DNA of 64,000 bases from an uncultured Tateyamaria sp. (GCF_947496075.1 NZ_CANMBJ010000002.1:1302001-1366000), one strand, 5' to 3'. Positions 12,819-62,707 are shown, counted from the stretch's first letter. The notes: generated from the sequence alone by a model not told the origin. Numbers and translations are program-made.

Positions 12819-12906
12819 GACCGCGGCGCACGCGCCGCCCCAATCCCCAACCGTTTAACCCACCCCCTCGCGTCTCTGATGCCGAGGCCCAAGAAAGGAC
12901 TGCCTC

Positions 12907-31480: not shown

Positions 31481-32491
31481 TCACCTGCGCACGAACTGCT
31501 CAGCGCGCGACTTGGTGATCAATATATCAGCGGTGCATCCGCATTTATGGGCCGTACAAGAAATAGGTGCGTATGGAAGTTCGAACGTTTCGCCCAACGT
31601 CCCGATCGATCCTCCTACGCCACAGGTCGCGCGAAAAACTTGGCCGGATGCATTGATACGCAGAGATTCGAGTCCCGCGTTGCACCGGTAACCCATGAGC
31701 CGGTTCAGATTGCGCAAAATGATTTCATTTGCACGCAGACGGTTCCGATTGCCGTCAGCGGTTCTTCCTGTCATCGTGGCTCTGGGCAATCTATCGGGAT
31801 GTCCTGAACAGCCCGGCAACCCAGCGTCCATGATCGCCATTTGTGCGTCAGAATACTCGTAGAGCTCGGTTGCAAAATCGACCCGGAGCGGTTTGAGCGA
31901 TATTGTTGCGTCGGGAAATGCCTGGCGAAGTTCAAGAGCGTCTGCATGGATTTTGCCAAATTCTGCAGGCTTCATGGTGATGTTGATGTGCATGGGTACA
32001 TCAGGAACCAAAATCTCGCCAACGCCTTTGAAGTGATCAAAATCTACGAATTCGCTATGGTACGTCAGAATAACGGCGTTCAGGTGCGGTTTGATCTTAG
32101 TCCAGAACCGATGTGTCCGAGATGCATTGGAAATCAAACTTACTGAAAACCCACGTGCACTCGCCTCTTCCAGGATACGTACGATCTGAGGGTGCATGGT
32201 TGGCTCTCCCCCAGTGAATTGTAGCCAGACACGTCGATCGCGGTGTGTAACGTAGTGGATTTGAAGCCGGTCGTAAAAGTCGACCACGTCATCCGGGTTT
32301 TGCCACCGCACCGTGCCGTCATGTAGAGACTTTGGACAGTAAGAACAGGCATAGCTGCACGCATTTCCAAGCATCCAGTCAACAAGCACGGTCCGGGCAT
32401 GAACTGCGTTTGTGTGCTCAAAAGATACGTAAGTCGCACCGTTGTCGTCCAAGTTAAACCCTCTGCCTTTGCAGCGCACAGTTTCGTACAA
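31481..32491 (-). CDS. radical SAM protein
   Basis: 336 aa enzyme using S-adenosylmethionine and an iron-sulfur cluster. The cluster motif CSYACSYC (C45, C49, C52) has the CxxxCxxC spacing, and the SAM-binding GGEP is near residue 93. A C-terminal set of cysteines (CNAGLES, ATCGVGG, CTAHKCGC) suggests additional cluster binding as in SPASM-type enzymes that modify peptides or sugars. The ORF begins at a TTG and no ATG exists upstream in frame, so the start is uncertain. It is divergent from the caspase-like gene with about 70 bases between. No precursor peptide gene was recognised nearby; substrate unknown. Confidence 0.85.
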   Translation of the reverse strand: MYETVRCKGRGFNLDDNGATYVSFEHTNAVHARTVLVDWMLGNACSYACSYCPKSLHDGTVRWQNPDDVVDFYDRLQIHYVTHRDRRVWLQFTGGEPTMHPQIVRILEEASARGFSVSLISNASRTHRFWTKIKPHLNAVILTYHSEFVDFDHFKGVGEILVPDVPMHINITMKPAEFGKIHADALELRQAFPDATISLKPLRVDFATELYEYSDAQMAIMDAGLPGCSGHPDRLPRATMTGRTADGNRNRLRANEIILRNLNRLMGYRCNAGLESLRINASGQVFRATCGVGGSIGTLGETFELPYAPISCTAHKCGCTADILITKSRAEQFVRR

Positions 32492-32560
32492 CTTGACTCA
32501 AATCGGCGAAGGACCCAAGCTTTCGCTGTTTTTATCCAAATCATTTAGAGGGCCGGTGTG

Positions 32561-34651
32561 ATGATGACCGTAAGTCCAAGTGTGAAGTTGATTATCGCTT
32601 TCTGTGTGCGAGCAGGGTTTTGCCTCGCTCTTCTCTGCCTCACGGCAGGTCCTGCGTTGGCTGACGGTCGTTGGGCACTTATTTTGGGTGTGGGCGAATA
32701 CGAAAGTCGCGCCATACCATCGCTCAGCAACGCTGTGAATGACTCTCGCGCTATCGCTGCATCGCTGAACGACATGGGCTTTGAAGTCTACTATTTGGAG
32801 AATGCGACCAAGGCTAAAATAGAAGAGACTGTCGATCAGATTGGACGAGAGCATCAGGGCGCAGAGCTTGGCCTTTTCTACTTTGCCGGTCATGGGTTGC
32901 AAGTTGGTGGGAAGAACTATGCACTGCCTTCAGATCTGGTGCCGGCCGGGGCTGATTTTCTGCAGCGCAACGCGATATCCGTGAACGATCTGATCAAGAC
33001 ACTGAACGATTTTGACACACAGTCGCTGGTTGTCATCTTGGATGCGTGCCGCGACTCCCCTTTCCCAAACGAGGAAGCAATTGGCGTTGGCCTCGCGTTG
33101 TTTGATGCGCCTGACAACACTATCGTGGCGTATGCAACCGCACCTGGCGCAGTTGCATTTGACGGCGCATATGGCAACAGCCCTTACACTGCTGCGTTGG
33201 TGACGGCGCTCAAAAGTGCGGAAACTGAATTCCGAGACGTTTTAAGGCTGGTTCGCGCGCGGGTTCGGTTGGCCACAGGGGGCGCTCAAACCCCTTGGTA
33301 TGTTGACAATTCCAAGGAGGCTATCACTCTGCGCCCACGGTTTGCGGAAGATGCCGAGGCATTGGCGCAGCTTGTGTCCGACCGCGATATAACGCTGTCG
33401 ACCACCGCATGGTTGACCGTTGTGGACAGTGCGGATCCCAGAGATTTCGAGCAGTTTGCATCGCTTTTCCCCGAGGACACATTGGCTGAAGTGGCTCAGC
33501 GACAACTGACCCTTGTGAGCGCTGAAGGAACACCAAGTTTTCCGCTGCTGGATCTGCGTGTCAGAGACGCAGATGAGGATGTGCCCGGCGGGCTTCTGGT
33601 TCAGATTACAGCATGCGACATCCTCGCGACCGGGATTGGGGATCCTTTGGCCTTAGTCGAACCTGTACCTCATGACTTGGTCAATACGCGCGCGGCGATG
33701 CGGGCTTGTGTTGAGGCAGTTCGAGACGACGCTACGAATGCGAGGCTTCTTGGATTGCTGGCCCGGGTCCTTAATCTGGATGAACGGTTTGAAGAGTCGC
33801 TGCACTACTATGAACTTGCCGCAGCGCGTGGGAACCCGACGGCGTATACCGGCATCGCAACAGCCTATCGGCTGGGTATGGGAGTTGAACCGGACAACGA
33901 GAAAGCCTTTGAATCTGTTCAAGAGGCCGCGCTCCTGGGATCGGCCCCTGCCCGGCTGCTTTTGGGTGTCTACTACCGCGAAGGCTGGGGACGGCAACAG
34001 TCGTTCCCCGAGGCCAGACGTTGGATGAGGCTGTCCTTGGATGCGGGCTATGCACCAGCATACGTCGCCTACGGTGGCACATATCGCAAGGGTCTTGGTG
34101 TGCCGAAGAGTGATGAAACCGCTCTGGAGTTCTACCGAACTGCAGCAACGCTTGGCAGCTCAGACGCTATGAACCTTATTGGAAGGGCTTACATGGCTGG
34201 CAAGGGCGTTCAGAGGGACACCAGAACCGGCATCCGTTGGCTAGCCAGAGCAAGCGAAGAAGGAAACCCCTTTGCGGCATTGGAACTCGGCAAGGCCTTT
34301 CAAAAGGGCAACGGAGTTGAGAAGGATCTCGAAAAGGCCCTTTCTTACTTCCGTTTGTCAGCGCAAAGAAACTTCGTAGGAGCCCACAATTACATCGGCA
34401 GTATCCTGCGCACCGGAACTCGGAACCGCCAACCCAATCTTCCCGAGGCCTACGCCAATTACATCATCGCACGGGACGGGGCGTTATTGCGGGACACACG
34501 TGACTCGATCAAACAGTTGAACGATGCTGAGGTGCGCATTGCGTCAATTATAGGCGAAATGTCGTCTCAGCAAATCGAGAGCGGAGAGCAGATGGCCGCT
34601 GACTGGATAGAGCAGTACGGTCTGCTTGACTTCAACCTTGTCAGCGAATGA
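32561..34651 (+). CDS. exported caspase-family (C14) protease with Sel1 repeats
   Basis: 696 aa from ATG 32561, 8 bases after AGAGGG (GTG/ATG codons on either side are alternatives). A signal peptide covers about residues 1-35 (cleavage near PALADG). The caspase-like domain follows, with the His of YFAGHGLQ (about 111) and the Cys of VILDACRDSP (about 163) as catalytic pair. A middle segment holds AWLTVVDSADPRDFEQFASLFP. Several Sel1/TPR-like repeats then fill about residues 400-640 (for example GMGVEPDNEKAFE, GLGVPKSDETALE, GKGVQRDTRTGIR). Likely periplasmic. Overlaps the next gene by 4 bases. Confidence 0.9.
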   Translation: MMTVSPSVKLIIAFCVRAGFCLALLCLTAGPALADGRWALILGVGEYESRAIPSLSNAVNDSRAIAASLNDMGFEVYYLENATKAKIEETVDQIGREHQGAELGLFYFAGHGLQVGGKNYALPSDLVPAGADFLQRNAISVNDLIKTLNDFDTQSLVVILDACRDSPFPNEEAIGVGLALFDAPDNTIVAYATAPGAVAFDGAYGNSPYTAALVTALKSAETEFRDVLRLVRARVRLATGGAQTPWYVDNSKEAITLRPRFAEDAEALAQLVSDRDITLSTTAWLTVVDSADPRDFEQFASLFPEDTLAEVAQRQLTLVSAEGTPSFPLLDLRVRDADEDVPGGLLVQITACDILATGIGDPLALVEPVPHDLVNTRAAMRACVEAVRDDATNARLLGLLARVLNLDERFEESLHYYELAAARGNPTAYTGIATAYRLGMGVEPDNEKAFESVQEAALLGSAPARLLLGVYYREGWGRQQSFPEARRWMRLSLDAGYAPAYVAYGGTYRKGLGVPKSDETALEFYRTAATLGSSDAMNLIGRAYMAGKGVQRDTRTGIRWLARASEEGNPFAALELGKAFQKGNGVEKDLEKALSYFRLSAQRNFVGAHNYIGSILRTGTRNRQPNLPEAYANYIIARDGALLRDTRDSIKQLNDAEVRIASIIGEMSSQQIESGEQMAADWIEQYGLLDFNLVSE

Positions 34652-36504
34652 TCCAACACACGCCCATCGCACAGACCCGCCAGGACGAGGAGACCTGTCA
34701 GTTAGGCGATGTGCCGTTCGTTTTTCTGTCCTATGATGAGCCCTGGGCAGATTGGAATTGGAGGGACTTGAAGTCAAAAGTTCCAACTGCAATGCGTGTC
34801 CATGGCGTGAAAGGACTGGATGCGTGTCATAAGGCGGCAGCGAAAGCCGTTGAAGGACAATGGCTGGTTACGGTAGATGCGGATACACGACTCGATCCGC
34901 GCCTGTTGAAGGCGACTGTGCCGACGGCGCTGATGCATGATTTGTTTCGCTTTGATTGGCTCAGCAGAAATCAGGTCAATGGACTATGGAGCGGTAACGG
35001 TTCCGTCAAGCTTTGGCCGACCAGGCTTTTGCAGGAAATGCAAACGCATGAGGCGGCACCGGATGAAAAGGTGTCGATGGACCATGACATTGGCGGCGTG
35101 CTTCCTGGTCGCTCGGGCCAGATCATCCGTCCCGAACGCGGCACCTACACCGATCCTGCGCGGACTGCGTTGCACGGTTTTCGTGCAGGATACCGAGAGG
35201 CCGTATTCCTATATCAGTTGGCTATTGAAGAGGTCGGCAGGCTGTCACTGGATGGTTGGCAACAGGCCAGCGTTGCCCGCATTTTGGGTGTTTGGTGCAC
35301 ACTTGGGCGGCATGCGCCTAATGGGCATTGGGTTTTGTACGGCGCTCGTCTCGGGTTGCTCCACCACGCGCAGAAACAGTTGCAGGACCCGAGGTGCGTC
35401 AATGATTATGGGTGGCTGTCGGAGCTCTGGTCGCATGACGTCGCACCGCGTTATGGGCTGGCTGGAACCGATGGACCGTGGAGATGGGATTGGTTGGAAG
35501 ACGACCTGCTCAAGATGGGCGACTGCATCCGAGCGGACCTGAATTTCCCGATTGCGGAGTTCGATACTGTTCAGTCTCAATGGCTGGTCGACGCGGATTT
35601 GCTGTCGGCAACCCCTGCGGCAAGTCGACATGATGCGATTGGGTACCTGACTATGATGGCAGCACCTGATGCCCATAACGCCGAGGTTGCTCGCCCGCTA
35701 TTTGATGTCGCTCGGACTCTCGACCACCCTTCAGCGTTTCACAATACCGGGCTGACCTATCTGCGTGCGTGCCAAGCGTCTGCGTCAAGAGAGATGGCGG
35801 ATTGGTATTTTCGGGCCGCCGATGCCTTGGGCAACCCGCACGCCTTCGGAAAAATTGAACACTTGCGTGCGGATGGTGTTTTCGAAGACAAAAACCGCCC
35901 TGCCCGGCGGGCCTGTGACTACCCAACGGTTCCGGCGGACAAGATCAAGTCTTTGGACATCGATGGATACTGTTTTGTCTTTGACAAAGCGGTTCAACCG
36001 ACGACCGAGATGGAAAAGCATGTCCCCGATCCCAATTTGTGCACAGACGGCCGCGTGATCGGGTATTCCTGTTACTGCCAATTGACAAGCCAGATCATTC
36101 ACTCCGGCATACGGTTTGGGGCAGTTCGGACGTTTCTGGATGCACCGGACCAGATGCCGTACGCCGTCCTTCCAAAGCATCTAGGGGAGCGCCGTCAGCC
36201 CAAATCCAGGAAAGAAGCGGCACTTTTCGCCGAATGCGATTTCAACTCAGGCGTTCTGTCGGACAATGCAATTGTGTTCGCCAGCGATGGCCCTTACCGC
36301 GACGCTTACCTGGGCGCCCTCGAAACCCTTCTTGGGAATGGCAAAATCCAAACTTGGCCAAAAAGGGATGCCGAATGGTTAAGGTTTCTGAAGCCAAGAA
36401 TTGCGCGCAAGCAAGCATTTCTGGAAGCCGCAGACAAGTTGGACGAGGATACTGCCACAGCTCTGATCCGGACAGCGGATGCTGTCTGGGGGCGCTTACC
36501 CTAA
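34648..36504 (+). CDS. large glycosyltransferase-like protein with Sel1-like segment, function unknown
   Basis: 618 aa, starting at an ATGA overlap with the caspase gene. Residues about 25-130 look like a GT-A glycosyltransferase: FVFLSYDEPWADWNW, then KGLDACHKAAAKAVEGQWLVTVDADT with a DxD-type motif. Around residues 350-405, AFHNTGLTYLRACQA and MADWYFRAADALGNPHAFGK resemble a Sel1-like repeat. The C-terminal 200 residues are unrecognised. No signal peptide, so cytoplasmic. The translational link to an exported protease is unexpected. Enzymatic activity is inferred and uncertain. Confidence 0.65.
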   Translation: MIQHTPIAQTRQDEETCQLGDVPFVFLSYDEPWADWNWRDLKSKVPTAMRVHGVKGLDACHKAAAKAVEGQWLVTVDADTRLDPRLLKATVPTALMHDLFRFDWLSRNQVNGLWSGNGSVKLWPTRLLQEMQTHEAAPDEKVSMDHDIGGVLPGRSGQIIRPERGTYTDPARTALHGFRAGYREAVFLYQLAIEEVGRLSLDGWQQASVARILGVWCTLGRHAPNGHWVLYGARLGLLHHAQKQLQDPRCVNDYGWLSELWSHDVAPRYGLAGTDGPWRWDWLEDDLLKMGDCIRADLNFPIAEFDTVQSQWLVDADLLSATPAASRHDAIGYLTMMAAPDAHNAEVARPLFDVARTLDHPSAFHNTGLTYLRACQASASREMADWYFRAADALGNPHAFGKIEHLRADGVFEDKNRPARRACDYPTVPADKIKSLDIDGYCFVFDKAVQPTTEMEKHVPDPNLCTDGRVIGYSCYCQLTSQIIHSGIRFGAVRTFLDAPDQMPYAVLPKHLGERRQPKSRKEAALFAECDFNSGVLSDNAIVFASDGPYRDAYLGALETLLGNGKIQTWPKRDAEWLRFLKPRIARKQAFLEAADKLDEDTATALIRTADAVWGRLP

Positions 36505-37058
36505 AGAACAGCTCTTGCTGCGCCTGCACTCTCGCAGGTGACGCCATCAGCAAATGCAGCACCTTGCTGCTGGTCAAAGGATTTCGTCTGGCGAAACAAA
36601 GAGGTTCCATCGGGCGTCTGGTATTCAAGCGTCACCCTATGATCTTCCGAGATCGAATAGAGGTCACCCTGCCCCATCTGAACGCGCACAGTCGACCTTG
36701 TGCTAACTAAGCGAACAAAAAGCTCTTCATTGTAGATGACCGCGGCGAGAGGCGCCGACCCAGGAAAAGTGGCCCTCTTTCCAAGAGCAACCTGCGCGAT
36801 TGTCCCGCAATTGACCATTTTTTCTGATCGGGTGCTGGCCTCTACGGTTGAACCACCGTCAATAATTGCAACGTCACCGAAGCCGGCAGCTTGAAAAGCA
36901 GCGGCAATCTGAGTGATCGATTTGGAGGTTCGAACGGACGATACACCCCCTTCTGGTTTTTCAATCAGATACAAACCTTCTTCGTTTGGTATCGCATTAC
37001 ATCCCGTCAACACGAGAGCCGCACATCCGGCATAAAAGGAACGTAGAAGTACGGTCAT
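36501..37058 (-). CDS. putative lipoprotein of unknown function
   Basis: 185 aa with a clear lipoprotein signal: short basic start, hydrophobic stretch, lipobox LTGC with Cys20. The rest is a soluble domain with two later cysteines (VNCGTI, VTCESA) that I do not recognise. It converges on the GT-like gene with a 4-base tail overlap and overlaps the preceding small gene by one base, so the two minus-strand genes are co-transcribed. Probably anchored in the outer or inner membrane facing the periplasm. Confidence 0.7.
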   Translation of the reverse strand: MTVLLRSFYAGCAALVLTGCNAIPNEEGLYLIEKPEGGVSSVRTSKSITQIAAAFQAAGFGDVAIIDGGSTVEASTRSEKMVNCGTIAQVALGKRATFPGSAPLAAVIYNEELFVRLVSTRSTVRVQMGQGDLYSISEDHRVTLEYQTPDGTSLFRQTKSFDQQQGAAFADGVTCESAGAARAVL

Positions 37059-37396
37059 TAGTAGAGGCCCCCACCACCGGATTGAGCGCGTTGGCCGCCG
37101 TTATCAACACTTTCGTTCCCGATTGATCTGTCGGTGCCAAGAGCTTCGCGGCATGAAATGTCTATCCCACGCTCGTTCACGCAACCCAGATTAACCAGCG
37201 CGTTGACAGCCTGCTCAACAAATACACCTGCCGGGTAGCTGCTGAGGTAGTTGAAATATGCACTCGGCGTGTTTTGAGACACCGTGTTTTGCCATAGTCG
37301 GTTTTCAGTTTCGTCCGCACTTGCCGCGGTTGATCCGAAAATCAATGATAAGAAAAAAGCGCGCCAAAAAAGAGCGAGGCGGGTGATCTGGGCCAT
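37058..37396 (-). CDS. small exported protein sharing a caspase-associated motif
   Basis: 112 aa from ATG 37396 (MAQITRL); the track begins 18 codons earlier. Signal peptide to about TAASA. The mature part starts ETENRLWQNTVSQNTPSAYF followed by YLSSYPAGVFVEQA. This W-x-x-y-L-x-x-y-P-x-G-x-A pattern is commonly found next to bacterial caspase-like domains and recurs in the caspase protein here (AWLTVVDSADP...FASLFPE). The C-terminus is Gly/Gln-rich and ends GGGGLY. One-base overlap with the lipoprotein gene. Role unknown; partner of the caspase-like protease is an inference. Confidence 0.65.
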   Translation of the reverse strand: MAQITRLALFWRAFFLSLIFGSTAASADETENRLWQNTVSQNTPSAYFNYLSSYPAGVFVEQAVNALVNLGCVNERGIDISCREALGTDRSIGNESVDNGGQRAQSGGGGLY

Positions 37397-37470
37397 TTCA
37401 ATACAACCTAAAAATTCAATGCAGAGATCATAGCAGAAACCGGCCGCCAATCAAAACACGAATATCAACT

Positions 37471-37920
37471 TCAGGCTGCAAAGACAGAATCCGGCCCGTG
37501 CCGTTTGGCTGCAATCGACCTGATTTCGGTGGAGCGGTTGCCATGCCATGTACATCCGACAACCTGCCAAAACTGCGTGATGTGATCCAAGCGGGCCATC
37601 AAATACTCTTCTGATGTCGCCGTCCCTGCGCCCTCATCCAAGCTTGAGCGCATGTCCAAGGGCACATACTCAAAAATCACCTCAGGACGATTGATCAAAA
37701 TCGGTGGAAACGTGTTGGAAATGACCAGACTGCGAAATCCAGATCGCTCGCAAATGACTTGGTGATCGTTCAGGTTGTGTTCGGCAGTCTTGATATCGTC
37801 CAAGTGTATCAGCGCCCAGCTGATTTTGTACGGTTCTTGCACTGATGAGTCACCAGTCAAAGAGGCATCAACCGCCTGACGACCTGCAGAAATTGCCCGC
37901 TTGAACTTGCTCCAAACCAT
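37471..37920 (-). CDS. hypothetical protein
   Basis: 149 aa from ATG 37920, which follows AAGGA by about 9 bases; the track start at 37950 is less likely. No signal peptide or known domain. Mixed alpha/beta composition, with ISWALIHLDDIKTAEH and a segment rich in hydrophobic residues (RSLVISNTFPPILINRPEV). It is transcribed away from the glycosyltransferase operon and toward the two exported-protein genes, 74 bases before the small exported one, so it may belong to the same unit. Confidence 0.55.
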   Translation of the reverse strand: MVWSKFKRAISAGRQAVDASLTGDSSVQEPYKISWALIHLDDIKTAEHNLNDHQVICERSGFRSLVISNTFPPILINRPEVIFEYVPLDMRSSLDEGAGTATSEEYLMARLDHITQFWQVVGCTWHGNRSTEIRSIAAKRHGPDSVFAA

Positions 37921-37999
37921 CAGGAATCCTTGTTCGTTGCAAATAGACAAACATCAATTCCTTGCTAGAGTAACCCAAGTTTTTGCGAGAAAGCCAGTT

Positions 38000-40186
38000 T
38001 TGAGAGTCGATGTATTACTTGTTGGAGACTTTCGCTTTCCGGGCGGAACGTCCACGTCCATAGTCTCCGATGTGAAGGCGTTGCACGGCGCGGGTTACAG
38101 GGTCGGGTTACTGGCCTATGCGAGCAACCTTTTTGATGGGCGGCGCAGCTTTCATCCTGGAATTCGCGCTTTGGCTGAAGATGGCTTGGCGTGTCTGGTT
38201 CCACCTGGTCAACCGGTTGAGGCCGAGTTGTGTTGTCTGCATCATCCGGCTGTGTTCGAACACCTGCCGGCGTTGCCCTTGGAGATCAGTTGTCCACGTT
38301 TTGTTATGATTGTGCATCATCCCCCCATCGATGCCTACGGAAACGAACAATACAATTTGTTGCGTTCAATGCGCATAACAGAAGCGCAGTTCGGCCACGT
38401 CGTCTGGGCGCCTGTTGGTCCAAAGGTTCGCGGTGCATTCAAAAAGGTCGCCTTGGCCCCTGCCCTGACCCAGTCCGATTGGGTTAACACGATCGATGCT
38501 GATGGGTTTCGCAAAAGCCGCCCCAGACTGAAGGGGCAGCTGCCGGTGCTTGGTCGTCATAGTCGACCGGGTGTCGAAAAGTGGCCGGACAGTGAAACAG
38601 AGTTCAAGAATGCCTACCCGGAAGCGGAACAACTCCGTGTTCGACTGATGGGATGGGGCAACCAGCTGGATGAGATTGTCGAGGAACGACCTCAGAACTG
38701 GGATGTTCTGCCCTTTGGCGCCATGCCGGTTGAAGACTTTCTGGCTGGTTTGGACTATTTCTCTTACTTCCATAGCGAGGTTTGGGCTGAAGCCTTTGGT
38801 CGGTCCATTCTGGAAGCCATGGCGGCCGGTCTTGTTTGTTTTTTGCCTGAACACTTCGAACCGCTCTTTCGACACGCGGCAGTGTATTGCGAGCCGATTG
38901 AAGTCTTGGACAAAGTACTGGGCTTTGAAAATAACCCCAAAGCCTACACCAAACAGTCAGAGCGTGCCGTGGAGTTCGTGAAATCGCATTTCGGCCCGGA
39001 TAAATCCGTCGCTCGGGTCGCAGCAATGATCGGCCCGCCGAACCGGCTTCCACAAGCTACCGCTGCACGCAAGGCCGGTGTTCTTTACCTAACGTCCAAT
39101 GGCGTCGGAATGGGCCACATTACCCGCTGTCTGGCAACCGCACGACGTTTGTCCGATCAGTGTGACCCTGTCATTGTGACGATGAGCAAGGCGTTTGGTG
39201 TTGCCGAGACACAGGGTTTCAAGGTTGAGTACCTGCCGTTTTTTAGATCCATTGGGATCGAGTACAGCGATTGGAACCAAAAACTCTCGGCCGAGTTGGA
39301 CATGGTTTTGCGATTTCACAGGCCCAATGTGCTGGTACTCGATGGAAATGTTCCCTATGATCCGCTGCTTCGGGTTCTTCCGGACTTTCCGCAGATGTGG
39401 AGTGTCTGGCAACGCAGACCACTTTGGCCGGCAGATGTAGGCGAAGAGTTCCTGCAGCATGCTTCCCGATTTGATACGGTGCTAGAACCAGGTGAACTCG
39501 CGGCACCCGTGGATCGTGGCCCAACCGTTGGGAGACGAGTTGAGGCGCGGCAAGTGCCGAGCATCCGCTATCTTGATCAGTCAGAGATTTTGGATCGCAA
39601 AGCTGCGCGTGCGTTGATCGGGCTCGATCCGGATCGTCCAGCATTTGTATTGCAATTGGGCTCCGGTAACAATTTTGACATGCAAGGGGTGCTCAAGAAA
39701 ATCTGCTCGATCGGCGATCCCGCTTTGCAGGCGCGCCCGATCCAGCTCGTTTTCGCGCGATGGCGTATAACGCAAAAAGCGCCTGAGTTACCGGCCTTCG
39801 TGAAGACTTTGGACGCGTTTCCGATTTCAAAGCTGCTGAATGCTTTCGACGGTGCGATAGCACTGGCAGGCTACAATACGTTTCACGAGAACATAGCAGC
39901 CGCTCTGCCAACTTTGTTTACGGCCAACCAACATCCCGAACAGGACGAACAATGGCTGCGTGCGGACTACGCCGCTCAATGTGGTTTGGCACTCAGTGCG
40001 CGCAGCTATGACGCGGTGCAGTTTGAAAGAGCGCTGCGCCGTCTTCTTGACCCAAAAACACGCGAAACACTGCGGCTGAATTGTAACCGCGCGAAGTTGG
40101 AAAACGGGGCGCAGCAGGCAGCCAATCTTATCTCAACATTGGCCATGACGCGAAAACCAAGCGGTGTCGCGTTTCATGCAGTTTAG
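38000..40186 (+). CDS. bifunctional-looking glycosyltransferase: GT4-like N-half, GT28/MurG-like C-half
   Basis: About 728 aa. No ATG is available; TTG 38000 (LRVDVLLVGDFRF) after GAGAAAG is preferred over the track's TTG at 37901, which would overlap the divergent gene. The N-half shows GGTSTSIVSDVKAL and the GT4 E-x7-E signature in EVWAEAFGRSILEAMAAG. The C-half restarts with LTSNGVGMGHITRCLATAR (MurG-like glycine-rich loop) and has a nucleotide-sugar site pattern in GYNTFHENIAAALPTLFTA. It therefore looks like two GT-B enzymes fused. Donor and acceptor unknown. Likely cytoplasmic, building a surface glycan. Confidence 0.8.
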   Translation: MRVDVLLVGDFRFPGGTSTSIVSDVKALHGAGYRVGLLAYASNLFDGRRSFHPGIRALAEDGLACLVPPGQPVEAELCCLHHPAVFEHLPALPLEISCPRFVMIVHHPPIDAYGNEQYNLLRSMRITEAQFGHVVWAPVGPKVRGAFKKVALAPALTQSDWVNTIDADGFRKSRPRLKGQLPVLGRHSRPGVEKWPDSETEFKNAYPEAEQLRVRLMGWGNQLDEIVEERPQNWDVLPFGAMPVEDFLAGLDYFSYFHSEVWAEAFGRSILEAMAAGLVCFLPEHFEPLFRHAAVYCEPIEVLDKVLGFENNPKAYTKQSERAVEFVKSHFGPDKSVARVAAMIGPPNRLPQATAARKAGVLYLTSNGVGMGHITRCLATARRLSDQCDPVIVTMSKAFGVAETQGFKVEYLPFFRSIGIEYSDWNQKLSAELDMVLRFHRPNVLVLDGNVPYDPLLRVLPDFPQMWSVWQRRPLWPADVGEEFLQHASRFDTVLEPGELAAPVDRGPTVGRRVEARQVPSIRYLDQSEILDRKAARALIGLDPDRPAFVLQLGSGNNFDMQGVLKKICSIGDPALQARPIQLVFARWRITQKAPELPAFVKTLDAFPISKLLNAFDGAIALAGYNTFHENIAAALPTLFTANQHPEQDEQWLRADYAAQCGLALSARSYDAVQFERALRRLLDPKTRETLRLNCNRAKLENGAQQAANLISTLAMTRKPSGVAFHAV

Positions 40187-40198
40187 ATGGGTTGACGC

Positions 40199-42397
40199 AT
40201 GACCGCCCGCGTCACAATCGGAATGCCCGTCTTCAACAACGCCGAAACGTTGGAACGTGCAGTGTCTTCCGTGTTGGCGCAAACATTTCGGGACTGGGAA
40301 CTTCTGATCACGGATGACCAATCCGACGACGAAACGTTTGGAATTTCGCAAGAATTAGCGACGGCTGACCCACGTATATCGGTACGCGTGAATGATCGAC
40401 GGATGGTCTTTCACAACTTTGAACTTGCCCTCAGGAAAGCACGCACAACCTACTTCGCCTGGCTTGCAGGTGACGATTATTGGGATCCTGCTTTTCTAGA
40501 AGCGACGGTTGCTGCGCTTGATGCCGCGCCTTCAGCGGTGTCTGTCATCCCTTCTGCTGCCTTCATAGGTGAACCGCCTCATCCAGTCCCCAACCTTGGA
40601 TTTCTGAAGGGTCTCAAGACAGAAAGGATCAAACGATATCTCGCCCATCCGGGTGGAACGCGGATGTATGGATTGATGCGGACCAAGGCTGCGCGCACTT
40701 CTTTTCCGATGCATGCCGGATACGCATACGACTGGTATTTCATGGTGTCTTTGCTGTCGAAGGGACCACAGCTTTCGCTTCCTGCATGTCTGCTTTTTCG
40801 GGAGGAAACGGGCTGGATCACCTATGCAGCATGCGGTACGGAAGGTTCGGAACGTTTCAAACTCAGACGGTGGCCGATCTTTGGCATCAGTTGGCAATTG
40901 CTCAAGACCAAGAGCATCCCCATCGGAGCCCTGCCGGCATTGCTTGCACTGAATGCCCGCAAACATGAGGAGTATTTGGCCGTAAACGAACCGGATGTCT
41001 TTTTACGCCGACTGGGCCTGTTCAAAAGAATTGGACTGCCACTCTCAAATCGGCAGGACAAGCTTTCTCAGCTTGCAGAGTATCACTCCGATAAGAAACT
41101 GGACTTCCCCGGTGTTGCAAAGACCGATCCAAAGTCGGCACCGGTTGTTGGACGTCAACACCCCGAAGTGACCGCCATCGTGACATGTCGCAACGCGGAA
41201 GCCATGTTGCCAGCGTTCATAGATCATTACCGACAAATGGGCGTCGAGACTGTTGTGATCGATCATGGATCGACCGATGACACCGAAAGGATCGCTACCG
41301 GACATCTGGGAACATCGGTCAAGGATATCATTTCCACACCCTTTTTCGGTGCGTTCGATCTGACTGCGCAGTTAGAACTGAAGTCGCAGGTCATGCAGGC
41401 CCAGAAGGGTGATTGGGTAATTCATGCGGATGTAGATGAATTCCTCACGCCCAAAGATGGATTGACCATTCCCGAGGCAGTGCGTTCCGTCAATCAGGCC
41501 GCTTTCGCATGTGAAGAATACCTGCATCTGCCGTTGTTCGAAGATGAGGTGCACGATTCCAGAAATTTCCGTAGAACTATGAACCAAACCACAAGGATGA
41601 TGGAGCGGGACGAGAAACAGCGACTTTTCCGTCGCGACGCACCCTTGGATGTTTGGATGGCGACGGGCGGGCATACCATCTCTCGAAGGGCGGAAGACGT
41701 GGCGTTGAATAGGTTGCGGCTTGATCACTATCTGGGCTTGTCGTTGGACGATATCCGGGGACAGTACTACAGCCGTGTCTTTGCCAGACGCGATTTGCAG
41801 AAATTGTGGCATCTGAATCGAAAGGCGGCTGCGCAGTTTGACATTGTAGGTGCCATTGACAGCCTACCGACGGAAACCAAGACGCTGCCCATATTTCGCT
41901 GTACGGAGGAGCGGCGTGTTAAGATCAAGTCTGGTGCGGACATCGTTGTTTTGGCGCAGAAAAAGGCTGACTTCAATGAGCTGTCTTCCAACTTGTCCGC
42001 TTCGTTTCCCGGGCTACGATTGCATCTTGAAACGTCGCCGATCGTTCCACAGACTGCGCTCCCTGTCCTGAACTTCCTTAGTCATCCTGCCTGGATCCAC
42101 CGCTTGCAGAATACCCGGGGGGAGGAACGGCGACAGGCAAGCGCATGGACGCGCCGATTGGCCAATGCGCGGCAAGCCGCTTTGGAGCGGTCAACGCCTT
42201 ACGCCGAAATCCGCATGGAAGATCTCCAAGCCGGGCGGGTTGATATGAGACAAACCCTGCAATTCTTACTTCTCGGCGCACCCAATGCCAACAACGGCAT
42301 GATTTTGGGACGTTCGGAAACCATCTCGATGGAACCCTACACGTCTCCGGTAAAAGACATCACAAAATCTCTCGCCGCTGATTTGGGCTATCGGTAA
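40199..42397 (+). CDS. tandem glycosyltransferase family 2 protein
   Basis: 732 aa with two GT-A domains. The first (residues 1 to about 230) starts VTIGMPVFNNAETLERAVSS, with TDDQSDD and the DxD-like AGDDYWD. The second (about 320-560) starts VTAIVTCRNAEAMLPAFIDH, with DHGSTDDT and HADVDEFLTP, matching the GT92/Glyco_tranf_2_4 type. The C-terminal 130 residues are unassigned. It starts 12 bases after the previous glycosyltransferase gene, so both probably act on one glycan. No membrane segments. Confidence 0.85.
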   Translation: MTARVTIGMPVFNNAETLERAVSSVLAQTFRDWELLITDDQSDDETFGISQELATADPRISVRVNDRRMVFHNFELALRKARTTYFAWLAGDDYWDPAFLEATVAALDAAPSAVSVIPSAAFIGEPPHPVPNLGFLKGLKTERIKRYLAHPGGTRMYGLMRTKAARTSFPMHAGYAYDWYFMVSLLSKGPQLSLPACLLFREETGWITYAACGTEGSERFKLRRWPIFGISWQLLKTKSIPIGALPALLALNARKHEEYLAVNEPDVFLRRLGLFKRIGLPLSNRQDKLSQLAEYHSDKKLDFPGVAKTDPKSAPVVGRQHPEVTAIVTCRNAEAMLPAFIDHYRQMGVETVVIDHGSTDDTERIATGHLGTSVKDIISTPFFGAFDLTAQLELKSQVMQAQKGDWVIHADVDEFLTPKDGLTIPEAVRSVNQAAFACEEYLHLPLFEDEVHDSRNFRRTMNQTTRMMERDEKQRLFRRDAPLDVWMATGGHTISRRAEDVALNRLRLDHYLGLSLDDIRGQYYSRVFARRDLQKLWHLNRKAAAQFDIVGAIDSLPTETKTLPIFRCTEERRVKIKSGADIVVLAQKKADFNELSSNLSASFPGLRLHLETSPIVPQTALPVLNFLSHPAWIHRLQNTRGEERRQASAWTRRLANARQAALERSTPYAEIRMEDLQAGRVDMRQTLQFLLLGAPNANNGMILGRSETISMEPYTSPVKDITKSLAADLGYR

Positions 42398-42403
42398 CAC
42401 GCT

Positions 42404-43420
42404 ATGGCCGATCGCATCGTTCTTCATGTGGGACCACACAAGACCGGATCGACGGCGCTGCAGCATATGTTTGCAACGAACAGGCGTGTTTTGGCGCGAT
42501 ATGGTATCCACTATCCGATCACTGGACTCGATGGCGCGGCACATCAGGACGTGGCGCGCGCTTGCTGGGGCAAAGACAGCTCTTTGCTGTTGGATTTGGC
42601 CAATGAGATGGCCGAACATGACACAGTCTTCATTTCAAGTGAGCTCATTTCAGCATTGGATATGAAAGGGTTGGAGCGCTTGAGATCGGCCTTTGGCGAA
42701 ACTCGGGTCGAGATCATCTATGTCATCCGTCGCTTGCCCAACCTGCTGGCAAGCCATTGGCGCGAACTGATCAAACACGGTCAAAAACTATCGTTTGAAG
42801 AGTACCTTGAAAACGCTGTTATTGACGCCGGGCGGCCCAATCTTGTTCCTCCGTTGCCAATGCTCCATCTGGACCGTCTTTGTGAGTTCTTTGGGTCCGA
42901 CACCTTGCGCATTCTTTGCTACGATGCGCGGAACGGTGAGGTGGAAAATTACGGTCAGGATTTCGTGGATGACATTTTTGGAATTGGTCACGAAAACGCT
43001 TTCAGAACCAAGCAGTTAAACACAACCGCCCCAGACTGGCAGGTCGAACTGGGTCGCCACATGAACATCTTTGGCAACACCTCCCTGAACTATCCCCAGC
43101 GGCTCAATCTAAGAAAGAAGCTGTTTGAACGTATCGCGGACGATATGTTGGACTGGATGCCCGGTTTTGCCGCTCAGTATCATGCCGCAGTACCCATCAC
43201 CCTTTCGAATGAAACGAACTGGATCGCGCAGGAGCAAGAAGCGGTTGCACAGAAGTATGGCAGCCACTTTGTTGACTCTGTTGAAAGCTACCTGGCACCC
43301 ACTGAAAAGCAAATCCGACAACTGCCGTTGGGCATGCTTTCACCACAACTCAGGTCAGATATATCTCTTCTTTTCAATGAACTGGCTGCGAACCTCGACC
43401 CTTCGCCACCAGCCGGATAG
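42404..43420 (+). CDS. sulfotransferase-like protein
   Basis: 338 aa. The N-terminus IVLHVGPHKTGSTALQHMF is the PAPS 5'-phosphosulfate loop of the sulfotransferase fold. VIYVIRRLPNLLASHWRELI is the 3'-phosphate region with its Arg/Ser pair. It would transfer sulfate from PAPS to a hydroxyl, most plausibly on the glycan made by the two preceding glycosyltransferases (6-base spacing). Acceptor unproven; lipid or protein sulfation is possible. Confidence 0.85.
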   Translation: MADRIVLHVGPHKTGSTALQHMFATNRRVLARYGIHYPITGLDGAAHQDVARACWGKDSSLLLDLANEMAEHDTVFISSELISALDMKGLERLRSAFGETRVEIIYVIRRLPNLLASHWRELIKHGQKLSFEEYLENAVIDAGRPNLVPPLPMLHLDRLCEFFGSDTLRILCYDARNGEVENYGQDFVDDIFGIGHENAFRTKQLNTTAPDWQVELGRHMNIFGNTSLNYPQRLNLRKKLFERIADDMLDWMPGFAAQYHAAVPITLSNETNWIAQEQEAVAQKYGSHFVDSVESYLAPTEKQIRQLPLGMLSPQLRSDISLLFNELAANLDPSPPAG

Positions 43421-43654
43421 GCTGATTGACACCTTGCAAATGGCCAATGAGCCGAACACAAGGGTTTGCCTCAATTCTTTAACTAAGCTAGGCTGAAAGT
43501 ATTGATCGAACGCATAGATGTGGCTCAGTATTCAGTTAAATTTGGCAGGCATTGCAGAGTATTTCGACCCGGGTTTGGCCGCGAGGCATTGGTGTTCCGC
43601 CACCACAAAACAGGTTCACCCGCAAAGCACTGCAGCTAAAGGGAGGCGCCAGTG
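43421..43654. other. intergenic region before the T6SS locus
   Basis: About 230 bases with no gene and no clear hairpin. It marks the boundary between the glycosyl/sulfotransferase genes and the T6SS accessory genes. Confidence 0.5.
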
Positions 43655-44086
43655 ATGATAGCGAATGAAACGCTGGATGGAGTGGCCATTGGCATCTTTC
43701 TTGGTGTGCAGGATGGCGCGGCGCAGGTCGTTTTCGCTGGAAACCCCAAAGACGAGGCGATTGCAGCAAGATCAACCGTGGCGCTGGGATCCGAGGACAC
43801 AGGATGCGAAGTGGCGCTCCTTTTCGAAGACGGGCGGCGTGACCGGCCCCTAATTATCGGTCGTATCGTCCAACCCGGAGTGACCGAGCCGGAACGGCCA
43901 GCGGTTGATATCGTTAGAGATGGTGACCGCGTCGTGATCGAAGCGCAGGACCGGATTGATCTTCGCTGCGGAAAGGCGCGTATCATCATGGAGAAGGACG
44001 GGCATATCACCATTCGTGGCAGTTATCTGGTCAGCCACGCCTCTGCATCCAACCGGATCCGCGGCGGATCGATCAACCTGAACTAA
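43655..44086 (+). CDS. DUF6484 domain protein, T6SS-associated
   Basis: 143 aa from ATG 43655, 8 bases after GGGAGG (the track uses a GTG one codon earlier). It is a beta-rich protein with the DUF6484 pattern: GVAIGIFLGVQDGAAQVVF, then RRDRPLIIGRI. The C-terminal half has repetitive strands (VVIEAQDRIDLRCGKARI, then HITIRGSYLVSHASASNRI) like the gp5/VgrG beta-helix spike. It probably takes part in T6SS spike or effector delivery. Its stop and the next start share a base (TAATG). Confidence 0.75.
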   Translation: MIANETLDGVAIGIFLGVQDGAAQVVFAGNPKDEAIAARSTVALGSEDTGCEVALLFEDGRRDRPLIIGRIVQPGVTEPERPAVDIVRDGDRVVIEAQDRIDLRCGKARIIMEKDGHITIRGSYLVSHASASNRIRGGSINLN

Positions 44087-44433
44087 TGGCGGCCCCTGCC
44101 CTACCCGATATCCTTCGACAGCATGCCGAACAGGCAGCTTTCCTCTGGACGCAATATGATGCGGTTCTACAGGAGCAAAAGCCAGAAAACCCAGACGACC
44201 GAGAAGCTCAGGAGGAAGAAGTCGCCCGGCTGAACGAGCGATTGGAAGCGCATCTGGACGGCCTTCGAATTGCTGGGGCCGAGGGGTTGGCAATGGCCGA
44301 AGATCGTCTTGCCGAGTTCCCGGAACGCGGCGAATTGTTCGTGGTTCGAATGCTTCAGCCGAGTGCGAAGGATATGCACGTGGCGGGTTTGGAGGTGGAC
44401 AAAGTAAGGGCGTATTTGGAGCGGCATGTTTGA
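44086..44433 (+). CDS. short TIGR02270-like T6SS-associated protein
   Basis: 115 aa. The N-terminus ILRQHAEQAAFLWTQYDAVL and then LNERLEAHLDGLRIAGAEGL match the start of TIGR02270 proteins, T6SS-linked HEAT-repeat proteins that are usually about 400 aa. The rest of that family (the HEAT repeats) is missing. The frame closes properly and the next gene follows on the opposite strand after 6 bases. Either a truncated remnant or a genuine short form. Translationally coupled to the DUF6484 gene. Confidence 0.7.
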   Translation: MAAPALPDILRQHAEQAAFLWTQYDAVLQEQKPENPDDREAQEEEVARLNERLEAHLDGLRIAGAEGLAMAEDRLAEFPERGELFVVRMLQPSAKDMHVAGLEVDKVRAYLERHV

Positions 44434-44439
44434 TCAAAA

Positions 44440-45396
44440 TCATGCATCCTCTGGCCACGCTCCGCTCTTGAGATCTTCGATGCCGACATAGGACCACTTC
44501 CCGTTTTTTCGCCGAAACATGCCAGCAAGATCAGTCGCCCAAAGAGTGTCGCCAATCGTGGAAAGGCTTGTTAGTGGAAAAGGTTCGCGCGCACAGCCCG
44601 TATTGTATGGGATCAACTCCTCATCTTCGTAGATGTAAAGGTTGTGCAGATTGGATGCAGGGTACTCAGCAATAGCAATAAATCGGTCCCCGTCGTTTAG
44701 CGCGGTACGATGCAGGGATGGCTGTTTGTCAGCAAAGAAAAGCTCAAAACCACTGTCGAAATAGCCCTTGTAAATTTCCGCCCCGTTGCTGTCCCCGGAT
44801 AACACGATATGCCCATTTTCGGCGTGCCCCGAAACGAGGCGCGCACCGGTCGCGATTTCAGTCGTCTCGACGTTACCTTGACGTACCCGAACGAGCGCGC
44901 CAAGCGCACCACAGAAAACAAAGTCAGAACCTACTGCAAAACCGGCATAAAGTGGAGGATGGTTTCGTGCATACTCTTTCACTCTTTGAGACTGAGTTTG
45001 CGCATCGTCCGAGCGTGGTGGTTTTGGGCCTGGTTCCAGCAAGGGTGTCCATTGTTTGCTCGACCAGGAAAACTGCCAAAGGTTCTGATACTCGCCACAC
45101 GCATAGACCTGATCCGTGTTACCCAAAACTGCGTAAATGAAGAAATCCTTTGGTGGTTGTGGTGCTCCGAAGAGTTCTTCTTCAGATGGCTGCAGGGCGA
45201 ACAATGCACCATGCGCCACAATCCACACCAAATCCCGGCTTTCGTCATAATGTGCGCCTTGTACAGAGCCTTCGCCCTCTAAGTCGAAAGACTCAAACGT
45301 CCATCTGTCAAAATCAACAGTGTAGACAGACCAGCTGTCTTCATCTGAATCGTCAATGGCGATGGCGTGTGTTTCTGAGATCGGAAGCGTAAACAT
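44440..45396 (-). CDS. putative immunity protein (beta-propeller-like) for the adjacent effector
   Basis: 318 aa, no signal peptide, no named domain recognised. Sequence is rich in beta strands and Trp/Tyr with repeated patterns such as DLVWIVAHGALFAL, QVYACGEYQNLWQFSW and DTLWATDLAGMFRRKNGKWSYVG, suggesting a beta-propeller. It is acidic. It lies 28 bases downstream of the PAAR/AHH effector gene on the same strand, the usual place for the cognate immunity gene. The role is inferred from position only. Confidence 0.6.
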   Translation of the reverse strand: MFTLPISETHAIAIDDSDEDSWSVYTVDFDRWTFESFDLEGEGSVQGAHYDESRDLVWIVAHGALFALQPSEEELFGAPQPPKDFFIYAVLGNTDQVYACGEYQNLWQFSWSSKQWTPLLEPGPKPPRSDDAQTQSQRVKEYARNHPPLYAGFAVGSDFVFCGALGALVRVRQGNVETTEIATGARLVSGHAENGHIVLSGDSNGAEIYKGYFDSGFELFFADKQPSLHRTALNDGDRFIAIAEYPASNLHNLYIYEDEELIPYNTGCAREPFPLTSLSTIGDTLWATDLAGMFRRKNGKWSYVGIEDLKSGAWPEDA

Positions 45397-45424
45397 TCAA
45401 ATGGCCCTTCAGGATTGCAACAAA

Positions 45425-46450
45425 CTATCCAAACAACCGAGACTGACGCTTGTCCTTGGAGGCTTGGCTTCGTGGTTTGAATTTCTTCAGGTTTTTGTTT
45501 TGCTTTTTCGCCGTCGAGTATTGCTGAGCGATGCATTCCTTCGCCTTCTCGGCGCATTCGCTATCAACGGCGGATTGGTCGTATGCAACGCATTCATCAA
45601 GCAGGTCATTCGCGGTTTTCAATGCGTTCGCTACTGACGGAGGAGACATTTCGCGGAAACGTTCGTCAAACTGATGCAGGAAACCGTGACCGCGCAGCGT
45701 GGCAAGGCTTGTTGTTCCAGTCGCTGCCGCATAGGAGCGGCCGCTTTCGACGGTTGAATCCCTATTGGCAATTCCGCGCGCGGATCTCGGATTGGCCTCG
45801 CAAGCTGCGGAGCCGTAGGCGTTTCCACCAACACAGATACTGCAACCCTCGCCTTCGGATGGAAATGCGGGATCACTTGGCGGAGTACCGCGATTGCCCT
45901 GTCTGACGTATTGGTCCGGAATGATATGGTGTGCCTGGCCTCCGCGTTCGTTACACGCGTCTTTCGTTCCGTCATAGGATCCAACAAGGCAGTTTGCGCT
46001 TTCGAATACAACTGGCGGCCCCGGTATGCCCGCGACGATCCAAGGCGCATCGTCACCGGGATCGCTCGCATGGTTGGTGGTTGCCATATCCGTGAACCGC
46101 ACCACCCCCTTGCTTTCCACTTTTACATCCATCGACCACTTTTTCGCGTAAGCCGCGCCTGTGTTCTTTGATGTAATGATGCCTTTCTTCGGGGCGCAGC
46201 CAGCCTCATCCCCAGAAACTTTGGACCACTTGCTCGCATTCTCCATGCTCACTTCCTTGCCGCCAATCAGCACCTTGCTGCTGCCTTTGGTCAGATCGCT
46301 GTCCATGGCGAAATTGGGATAGGGTATGGGCACGCCCGGCGGGGTAGCTGGAGTTTGAGGCGGGGTGAAACAAGTGTCAGGGAATGCTGCGATAATTTTG
46401 CAGCCTTGCGCCTTTGCAGAAATCTCCAGATTGTTTGCGAAAACGGTCAT
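45425..46450 (-). CDS. T6SS effector: PAAR-like (DUF4150) domain fused to an AHH-type nuclease
   Basis: 341 aa. Residues 1 to about 125 form a DUF4150 PAAR-like domain (CFTPPQTPATPPGVPIPYPN, then SSKVLIGGKEVSMENASKWS), which caps the VgrG spike. The C-terminal part carries GQAHHIIPDQYV (about residues 171-182), the A-H-H signature of HNH-like nuclease toxins. Cysteine pairs follow (GCSICVGG) and the tail is Lys/Arg-rich. No signal peptide, as expected for T6SS cargo. It would cut nucleic acid in a target cell. The start overlaps the stop of the ketoacyl-synthase-like gene. Confidence 0.82.
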   Translation of the reverse strand: MTVFANNLEISAKAQGCKIIAAFPDTCFTPPQTPATPPGVPIPYPNFAMDSDLTKGSSKVLIGGKEVSMENASKWSKVSGDEAGCAPKKGIITSKNTGAAYAKKWSMDVKVESKGVVRFTDMATTNHASDPGDDAPWIVAGIPGPPVVFESANCLVGSYDGTKDACNERGGQAHHIIPDQYVRQGNRGTPPSDPAFPSEGEGCSICVGGNAYGSAACEANPRSARGIANRDSTVESGRSYAAATGTTSLATLRGHGFLHQFDERFREMSPPSVANALKTANDLLDECVAYDQSAVDSECAEKAKECIAQQYSTAKKQNKNLKKFKPRSQASKDKRQSRLFG

Positions 46451-47475
46451 GCGCTAAGGCCTCCGACAATCGCGACGCCACAGGCGCCGTCGTCGGCAGA
46501 CGACTCAATCAAAAGCGGCTTTTGATGAGCGTAGTCTTTCCGCACCGCGGCGAGCGCCCATCCTAGCATCACCGGTACGACCGCCGCACCGATGTTCCCC
46601 AAGGCCGCGGCGATGGGCCAAATAGGATGAACTTCACTGCGTTCGCGTTGTGTACGCAATGAGGCAAGCTCGCTTTGTTTGAACCAGAAAGTTTCGCCGA
46701 TCAGGTCGCCGATTTTCACACCGATCTCATGTAGACCAAGACCGGCCTCAGACAGCGCAGCCTTGTAAGCGGCAGCCATCCCTTCCCCGCGCAATGGGAG
46801 ATTAAAACCATTCTCGTCCTGACCGTTGAGAAAGTGTGCTTCTTCTCGGGACAGACCAATGCCACCGACGTTCATTCCGGGCCCGGCCCCTCGACAAAGA
46901 ACCGCAGCGGCAGCCTCCCCGGGAAGAAAACCCTCAGGATTGTCTGCTGTTAGAAGGCGTTGTTGAGATAGATAGTGCTGGATCGTGCGCCCAGTCAGAT
47001 AGCTGTCGACCCCCAAGATCGCGATTTCATGGTTTGGATCTCTGGCCAGAGCCTTGCGTGCGGTACTAAGCGCCACAATGCCAGACGGGCGCCCGTGCGT
47101 CACCACCTTACTGCGCAGGGAATAATCCAGCCCCAGAATCTTCTGCACTCGATGTAGAAAACTGTCGGCATCAAGAATGGGCCGCCCCGGTCGGTCTTCT
47201 TCGGGCAGACACAGGATGATTTCGACACTTTGGCAATCGTTGGCCTGCTTCAACACTTCCAAAAGAGCTCCCGCTGCCAGGTGCGCCCATCGTTTTTCTC
47301 CGATCCACTGCCGTGGCAGGGGCACGGCAGCACCTCTTAACCATTCCCCGCCCGGTCCTGCGAAACGCGTTTCGGCAAAGCCGTCAATGCGGGCCCGCAA
47401 TGCAGCACACGAAGATGGTGCGTCCAGGCCAACTGCCGTGACCATGCCTGCCGCAGAGATGCGCAATCCGTTCAC
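46447..47475 (-). CDS. beta-ketoacyl synthase-like (thiolase fold) protein, T6SS-associated
   Basis: 342 aa from a GTG that overlaps the DUF2169 stop (GTGA). The track's 73 extra N-terminal residues are Arg-rich shadow sequence of the DUF2169 gene. The N-terminus ISAAGMVTAVGLDAPSSCAA resembles ketoacyl synthases; later VDSYLTGRTIQHYLSQQRLL and NPEGFLPGEAAAAVL match their core. The usual Cys-His-His set is not evident, so it may be a non-catalytic thiolase-fold protein. Such genes recur beside DUF2169 and PAAR genes in T6SS loci, perhaps as effector loading factors (inference). Confidence 0.8.
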   Translation of the reverse strand: MNGLRISAAGMVTAVGLDAPSSCAALRARIDGFAETRFAGPGGEWLRGAAVPLPRQWIGEKRWAHLAAGALLEVLKQANDCQSVEIILCLPEEDRPGRPILDADSFLHRVQKILGLDYSLRSKVVTHGRPSGIVALSTARKALARDPNHEIAILGVDSYLTGRTIQHYLSQQRLLTADNPEGFLPGEAAAAVLCRGAGPGMNVGGIGLSREEAHFLNGQDENGFNLPLRGEGMAAAYKAALSEAGLGLHEIGVKIGDLIGETFWFKQSELASLRTQRERSEVHPIWPIAAALGNIGAAVVPVMLGWALAAVRKDYAHQKPLLIESSADDGACGVAIVGGLSA

Positions 47476-48575: not shown

Positions 48576-48581
48576 CGCGCC

Positions 48582-51254: not shown

Positions 51255-51404
51255 GATCAGACCCTCCTTCTGGAAAATGGACTTCTTCAAAACACAGATG
51301 GGCAAAAAAAATGTCGCGCCCACGGTCAGGCTAACCTATCGTGAATTCAAAGATAAAGACATTTTTTGAAACCGGAATCCCAAGAATTTAAGAGGGGTTG
51401 ATAC

Positions 51405-53480: not shown

Positions 53481-53561
53481 CAGGAAAAATTTGACCGAAT
53501 CGGACATTTCCACAAAGCTCAAGTCACTTTTTGTTGTAGTTTTTTTGTCTAGGAATTTCGT

Positions 53562-54683: not shown

Positions 54684-54707
54684 TTTAAATGAAGGACGTA
54701 GCAAATC

Positions 54708-55244: not shown

Positions 55245-55247
55245 GCT

Positions 55248-56753: not shown

Positions 56754-56760
56754 GCGCCCT
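56743..56760 (+). terminator. perfect stem-loop at the tssC-hcp junction
   Basis: AGGGCGCTTAAGCGCCCT is a fully self-complementary 18-mer. As RNA it folds into a 7-bp GC-rich stem with a TTAA loop that contains the tssC stop codon. A pyrimidine-rich stretch with a short T-run (CACCTTTT) follows about 8-16 bases later. It may be a leaky terminator or an RNA processing/stability element that sets hcp apart. Confidence 0.55.
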
Positions 56761-56793
56761 CGCCTTCACCTTTTGGCATAAGGAAATTTCAAA

Positions 56794-57330: not shown

Positions 57331-57333
57331 TTT

Positions 57334-62690: not shown

Positions 62691-62707
62691 AAAGGACGAT
62701 AAGTCAT

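Follow-up and report, generated by a model that had tools for sequence, protein, structure and literature searches.

Gene Content of the Locus

The window analyzed here is a 64,000-nucleotide stretch of DNA from an uncultured Tateyamaria sp. (GCF_947496075.1, NZ_CANMBJ010000002.1:1302001-1366000). It carries a compact block of genes that encodes a predicted exported caspase-Sel1 protease, several predicted glycosyltransferases (GTs), and three further proteins without family assignment, and that adjoins a type VI secretion system (T6SS) cluster. A conserved, T6SS-linked module of this kind almost certainly exists.

The block begins with a radical SAM gene (rSAM; 31481..32491, minus strand), which is divergent from the caspase gene (Casp; 32558..34651, plus strand) with 66 bp between them. 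The Casp stop overlaps the start of GTL (34648..36504, plus strand) by 4 bases (ATGA, 34648-34651), and GTL encodes a predicted GT-A-type glycosyltransferase plus a helical-repeat region. The minus strand carries the lipoprotein gene Lipo (36501..37058) and Small (37058..37396), which overlap by one base (TAATG at 37058), together with Hyp159 (37471..37950). On the plus strand lie GT761 (37901..40186), with two GT-B-like halves, GT732 (40199..42397), a tandem family-2 glycosyltransferase, and a sulfotransferase-like gene (42404..43420). The true start of GT761 likely lies downstream of 37901, and alignment suggests that Small likely starts at ATG 37396 rather than at TTG 37450. The first-pass annotation of this DNA had placed the first five genes, their divergence, and both overlaps as they are found here. 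It set the limits of the unit at 31481-37920, whereas the unit extends to 43420 and takes in Hyp159, GT761, GT732, and the sulfotransferase-like gene as well.

Searches of Pfam, NCBIfam, and PADLOC assigned GTL, Lipo, Small, and Hyp159 to no family, with the sole exception of a weak NCBIfam match for Lipo that falls far below the cut-off; GTL has no PHROG match either. The window gave no match in scans for Rfam families and tRNAs.

Conservation across Genera

Loci containing GTL were collected by scanning an 8-sequence alignment against 85,462 species genomes, and the resulting 40 loci were annotated with profiles of the module proteins. A scan of genome contigs with the single GTL sequence found no relative. 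The block is present in 27 loci from approximately 17 genera, including G137 and a plasmid of Rhodobacter CZR27, and adopts two arrangements. Arrangement A reads (rSAM) / Casp-GTL / Lipo-Small-Hyp / GT761-(GT732)-(sulfotransferase gene), where the genes in parentheses vary between loci and Hyp159 is conserved beside Small. It occurs in the window, Rhodobacter SGA-6-6, Tabrizicola, Brevirhabdus, Tropicimonas, UBA996, Defluviimonas, NORP251, and others, and the Brevirhabdus locus contains all nine genes. Arrangement B reads GT761-Lipo2-Casp-Small / GT4-Hyp2-GTL, with Hyp2 a form similar to Hyp159, and is carried by Sulfitobacter, Cribrihabitans, Tateyamaria, Ruegeria, Roseibium, Actibacterium, and two Rhodobacter. 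Three Tateyamaria genomes (G008, G009, G017) contain a cluster of the same families in a different order. The neighborhoods of GT761 relatives in other genera likewise show the block. The Defluviimonas WL0075 locus lacks the caspase and Small, and Small was not found in a few other loci.

Among 298 genomes of the family, the 7 that encode GTL (E<1e-130) are also the 7 that encode full-length Small (E<1e-20). The next-best match to Small (2e-14) comes from G027, a genome with GT761 and a caspase but without GTL. A sample of 385 genomes from the class yielded, apart from the window's own match, a single, weaker GTL match. The core of the module is the caspase-Sel1 protein, GTL, Lipo, Small, Hyp, and GT761. 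The module is accessory, patchily distributed, and probably horizontally moved. The first-pass annotation had named two outcomes that would speak against a functional unit, namely a neighborhood restricted to close strains and genes occurring independently of one another. Neither was seen, as the neighborhood spans many genera and GTL and Small are found almost exclusively together. A chance association of ordinary genes, for which the variation of rSAM, GT732, and the sulfotransferase gene between loci could be cited, is scarcely credible and was ruled out on the basis of this co-occurrence and of the gene order conserved across 27 loci.

Linkage to the Type VI Secretion System

A T6SS cluster (43652..64000) begins 231 bp after the sulfotransferase-like gene. 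Its Pfam matches comprise DUF6484, a PAAR-like protein, DUF2169, a ClpV-like ATPase, a Ser/Thr kinase, TssA, TssB, TssC, Hcp, TssE, TssF, TssG, FHA, TssJ, and TssK. The first-pass annotation made no mention of a T6SS in its account of the module; the linkage emerged from TssC counts and gene adjacency. TssC is present in 7 of 7 module genomes of the family sample compared with 68 of 284 genomes overall (24%; hypergeometric p=3.5e-5, a value that ignores relatedness). It is also present in all four further module genomes (Rhodobacter, Defluviimonas, Ruegeria, and Roseibium), for a total of 11 of 11 tested.

T6SS genes directly adjoin the module in six loci: the window, Actibacterium/G263, G275, Tabrizicola, a Rhodobacter metagenome-assembled genome, and Rhodobacter CZR27. 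The neighbors in G275 are FHA-TssK-TssL-TssM-TagF-PP2C-kinase, and the neighbor in Tabrizicola is DUF2169. On the complete CZR27 plasmid, the module lies inside a T6SS locus between DUF4150/DUF2169 and OmpA/PP2C/VgrG/TagF/TssM, where its proteins are annotated as hypothetical, glycosyltransferase, caspase family, peptidase M14, and the like. A Ser/Thr kinase of the type found in T6SS clusters and an OmpA-like gene stand beside the module in Tateyamaria and G275. In G006, G008, G009, and G017, caspases have as neighbors a relative (38%) of the window's own T6SS Ser/Thr kinase (51405-53480) paired with an OmpA-like gene.

Three points limit the case for the T6SS-tied function proposed below. Most module loci have no T6SS genes within 10 kb, and the co-occurrence of module and T6SS in genomes, counted without weighting by phylogeny, may partly reflect lifestyle or shared ancestry. 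Pairwise distances of Casp, GTL, GT761, Small, and Lipo correlate at r=0.88-0.94, at or near the permutation floor and also within each arrangement, which fits joint inheritance but would also arise if every gene followed the species tree. The structural matches of GTL in Foldseek are GT-A/nucleotidyltransferase folds, with a best E of 0.003 and none at E<=0.001, and are only suggestive. The module proteins themselves match no T6SS family in Pfam or NCBIfam, and the core Tss genes are neighbors only.

Caspase, Small, and Lipo

Casp is a predicted exported protease with a signal-peptide-like N-terminus, a Peptidase_C14 domain (Pfam, 4.9e-34; 118.5 bits against a cut-off of 21.4), and Sel1 repeats (5.2e-27). 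Both domains, along with the radical SAM domain of rSAM, had been claimed in the first-pass annotation and exceed Pfam detection. The catalytic dyad lies in the motifs FAGHGLQ and LDACR, and His112 and Cys164 are invariant among the homologs aligned; proteolytic activity is predicted from this intact dyad. A C-terminal tail, LDFxLV, is conserved in arrangement A, and a Casp homolog is present in 26 of the 27 module loci. In the Actibacterium caspase (L172:10924-13833), GHGVR replaces GHG[LV]Q and the rest of the dyad is intact.

Small is a protein of approximately 112 amino acids, predicted to be exported, with a hydrophobic, signal-peptide-like N-terminus followed by one repeat and a linker that varies in length and sequence. 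Its last residue is tyrosine in 21 of 23 members, and in the other two a tyrosine is one or two residues from the end. Small had been described as a caspase-motif protein. It contains no caspase domain, but its repeat (xxYLxxxPxGxxxxxA) also occurs in caspase-like proteins of approximately 560 amino acids. The Small and caspase genes are adjacent on the same strand in arrangement B.

Lipo contains a lipobox cysteine (Cys20) and two further conserved cysteines, C84 and C175, in an alignment of 17 sequences. Its AlphaFold2 model is confident (predicted local distance difference test, pLDDT, 89.5) and has no PDB match at E<=0.001. The RefSeq names of two proteins in L261, "pyruvate/2-oxoglutarate dehydrogenase complex" for the lipoprotein (8637-9095) and "peptidase M14" for GT4 (12488-13558), are likely misannotations.

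GTL and the Other Glycosyltransferases

GTL contains a VDADT motif at residues 76-80, and D77-A-D79, G116-N117-G118, K121, W123-P124, and T133-H134-E135 are invariant in the alignment. Its structural model has a mean pLDDT of 61 and is unreliable at residues 418-581; GT activity of the protein is thus a prediction. The first-pass annotation had assigned Sel1 repeats to GTL, which no Pfam family detects, although predicted helix pairs at residues 326-408 and weak profile cross-matches are consistent with them. Since its C-terminal part corresponds to a separate second GT-like gene (GTL2) that follows GTL in other arrangement A loci, the window GTL looks like a fusion.

GT761 is found in nearly every module locus, shares 30-51% identity across 11 loci, and has weak Glyco_trans_1_4 and PseG/MJ1255-type matches. 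Relatives of its N-terminal half sit in other sulfotransferase/GT clusters. Giant open frames around some GT761 matches (G094) were dismissed as an artifact; L094 contains 9001 N. GT732, a feature of arrangement A, matches Glycos_transf_2 (5.7e-30) and Glyco_tranf_2_4 (1.9e-15) in Pfam. The sulfotransferase-like gene has a conserved position in arrangement A and contains an HVGPHKTGST motif. The window protein has no Pfam sulfotransferase match, and its homolog in L082 matches Sulfotransfer_3 at 0.0022 (18.7 bits against a cut-off of 27).

Relatives of GTL are encoded by at least 589 uncultivated viral contigs. In the 80 examined (L181-L260), they often follow tail-type genes and often occur as tandem copies and beside radical SAM genes; 46 loci have a twitch-type radical SAM gene and 6 have the rSAM type of the window. 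No caspase, lipoprotein, Small, or GT761 was found in the viral GTL loci, and viral GTL and rSAM relatives gave no tblastn match in cultured-phage records, with a GTL representative finding none in 50,697 of them. The viral occurrence shows where the GTL family is common, not its role in the module.

The Radical SAM Gene

rSAM matches Pfam Radical_SAM (2.4e-8; 34.7 bits against a cut-off of 29.5) and contains a CxxxCxxC motif (C45, C49, C52) and a Cys-rich C-terminal region (C270, C290, C312, C317, C319), with all eight cysteines invariant in three homologs. The first-pass annotation had counted it among the module's members. Homologs of the window type do stand beside the caspase in Brevirhabdus, Tabrizicola, Tropicimonas, Rhodobacter SGA-6-6, and G293; however, rSAM is an accessory part that is exchanged for other types. 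The window type occurs in only 3 of 298 family genomes, and rSAM was therefore rejected as part of the conserved core. In arrangement A, the rSAM position alternates between three unrelated types, and most arrangement B loci lack any rSAM while keeping Small and its tyrosine. Other, unrelated rSAM families lie beside GT761 in G275, Defluviimonas, and G137 (L084:14241-15341, L087:15175-16377). A viperin assignment was rejected at 59.4 bits against an NCBIfam equivalog cut-off of 180, with only model positions 3-114 of 281 aligned.

The window rSAM can be aligned, over 88% of its length (32-33%), to rSAMs encoded in plasmid clusters of Vibrio and Photobacterium (L262:6212-14333, L264:5120-13389). 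These clusters encode a lysine acyltransferase-like protein, a SelO-like protein, a GT2, a small Gly-Gly-leader peptide ending in Y or F, an rSAM, HlyD, and a peptidase-ATP-binding cassette (ABC) exporter, and they look like bacteriocin-type clusters. Nocardia relatives of rSAM were not found in bacteriocin-like clusters.

Related Systems

The T6SS threonine-phosphorylation pathway (PpkA, PppA, FHA) resembles the surroundings of the module in that T6SS-type Ser/Thr kinase, PP2C, and OmpA-like genes are its neighbors in several loci. To our knowledge, this pathway contains no caspase or GT. Mycofactocin biosynthesis combines an rSAM, a GT, and a small protein with a C-terminal tyrosine. The module, by contrast, can do without rSAM, its Small protein begins with a signal-peptide-like segment, and no other Mft gene was seen.

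The Class II Tvp set (DUF6484 TvpC, PRK06147-type TvpD, DUF2169 TvpA, DUF4150 PAAR) likewise consists of accessory genes beside or inside T6SS loci, and its proteins build the VgrG-PAAR spike (PMC13373197). In the window, a Tvp-type set directly adjoins the module, and Rhodobacter CZR27 has a comparable set there. Specifically, window positions 43652-48575 encode DUF6484, a Tox-PAAR-like protein with an HHIIP motif, a KAS-like protein, and DUF2169, which is the composition of the Class II set (PMC13373197); by its position, 44440-45396 is a candidate immunity gene. The Tvp description contains no mention of caspase, Sel1, or glycosyl (PMC13373197).

Prokaryotic orthocaspases with Sel1 repeats share with Casp a C14 domain with a His/Cys dyad and an N-terminal signal or transmembrane segment (PMC3501461). 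Sel1 is found in 6% of metacaspases and is abundant in Alphaproteobacteria (PMC3501461). Unlike the module, these orthocaspases have no GT-containing or T6SS-linked conserved neighborhood in that text, from which the term "glycosyl" is absent. The viral relatives of GTL sit in neighborhoods like the pelagimyophage host-recognition cluster, a tail-fiber region in which marine T4-like phages carry glycosyltransferases and radical SAM cassettes (PMC7029224). The viral loci differ from the module in lacking its caspase, lipoprotein, Small, and GT761.

Proposed Function and Alternative Explanations

The first-pass annotation had suggested joint function across the envelope, and a possible, though tentative, form of this idea is a T6SS-tied module that couples glycan or protein modification to a periplasmic caspase. 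GTL, GT761, and, in arrangement A, GT732, along with the sulfotransferase-like enzyme and the exchangeable rSAM, would make and tailor a glycan in the cytoplasm or glycosylate an exported protein. Caspase-Sel1 would act with Lipo and Small in the periplasm. Small, with its tyrosine end and the repeat it has in common with caspase-like proteins, would most simply be a partner or substrate of the caspase. Together, these proteins may alter an envelope component, or switch it by proteolysis, that the T6SS either requires or has to be shielded from. An unlikely, more specific version is a T6SS-dedicated periplasmic caspase cascade, in which tyrosine-tailed Small, docked or cut by caspase-Sel1 and bearing a dedicated glycan from a GT family shared with aquatic viruses, would license or shield the apparatus.

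A surface-polysaccharide island is a somewhat doubtful alternative, in which a sulfated capsule or exopolysaccharide would shield T6SS-armed cells and the caspase and lipoprotein would be quality-control or regulatory extras. It is consistent with the three to four GT genes and sulfotransferase-like gene of arrangement A, the cluster context of GT761 relatives, and the service of Sel1-type proteins in polysaccharide production elsewhere (weak AlgK and ExoR matches). However, no conserved polymerase, flippase, or ABC exporter was found among the clustered unassigned neighbors, and in arrangement B the GTs are reduced to GT761, GT4, and GTL while the exported proteins remain. A generic exopolysaccharide role would also not predict the T6SS link.

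The tyrosine tail behind a variable linker also recalls a precursor peptide. In a ribosomally synthesized and post-translationally modified peptide system, Small would be modified at this tyrosine by rSAM, glycosylated, and released by the caspase. The Vibrio and Photobacterium clusters and the rSAM-GT pairing of mycofactocin point in this direction, but such a system is quite improbable given that the tyrosine persists where rSAM is missing, that the rSAM types of arrangement A are unrelated, and that neither a precursor-recognition protein nor a dedicated exporter belongs to the conserved set.

Some defense systems use orthocaspases as executioners, and a conflict or cell-death module would have the caspase triggered by T6SS attack or phage, with the GTs modifying a sensor. 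GTL relatives in viral contigs and matches to the PADLOC caspase and pVip models fit this scheme, although the matches are only partial (caspase 4-130 of 453; pVip 2-101 of 257) and no full set is recognized. The partial pVip and sub-cut-off viperin matches rule out a defense assignment of rSAM. With a signal peptide on the caspase, and with neither a sensor nor an NTPase switch among the module genes, this explanation is very unlikely.

Implications

The T6SS-linked module seems previously undescribed; a search limited to the open-access literature found no description of it, no paper on the combination of caspase, Sel1, and radical SAM, and none on caspase family proteins and T6SS in alphaproteobacteria. 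T6SS loci carry an accessory module that is not mentioned in the T6SS literature examined, and the GTL family is tied to a set of GT and radical SAM genes that is common among uncultivated viruses of aquatic habitats. The roles of bacterial caspase-like proteins are largely unsettled. In this locus, such a protein is a fixed member of a small, recurring gene set, four of whose families have no match in the libraries searched. The module gives exported caspases a defined list of partners and testable phenotypes, including T6SS killing, self-protection, and glycan profile.

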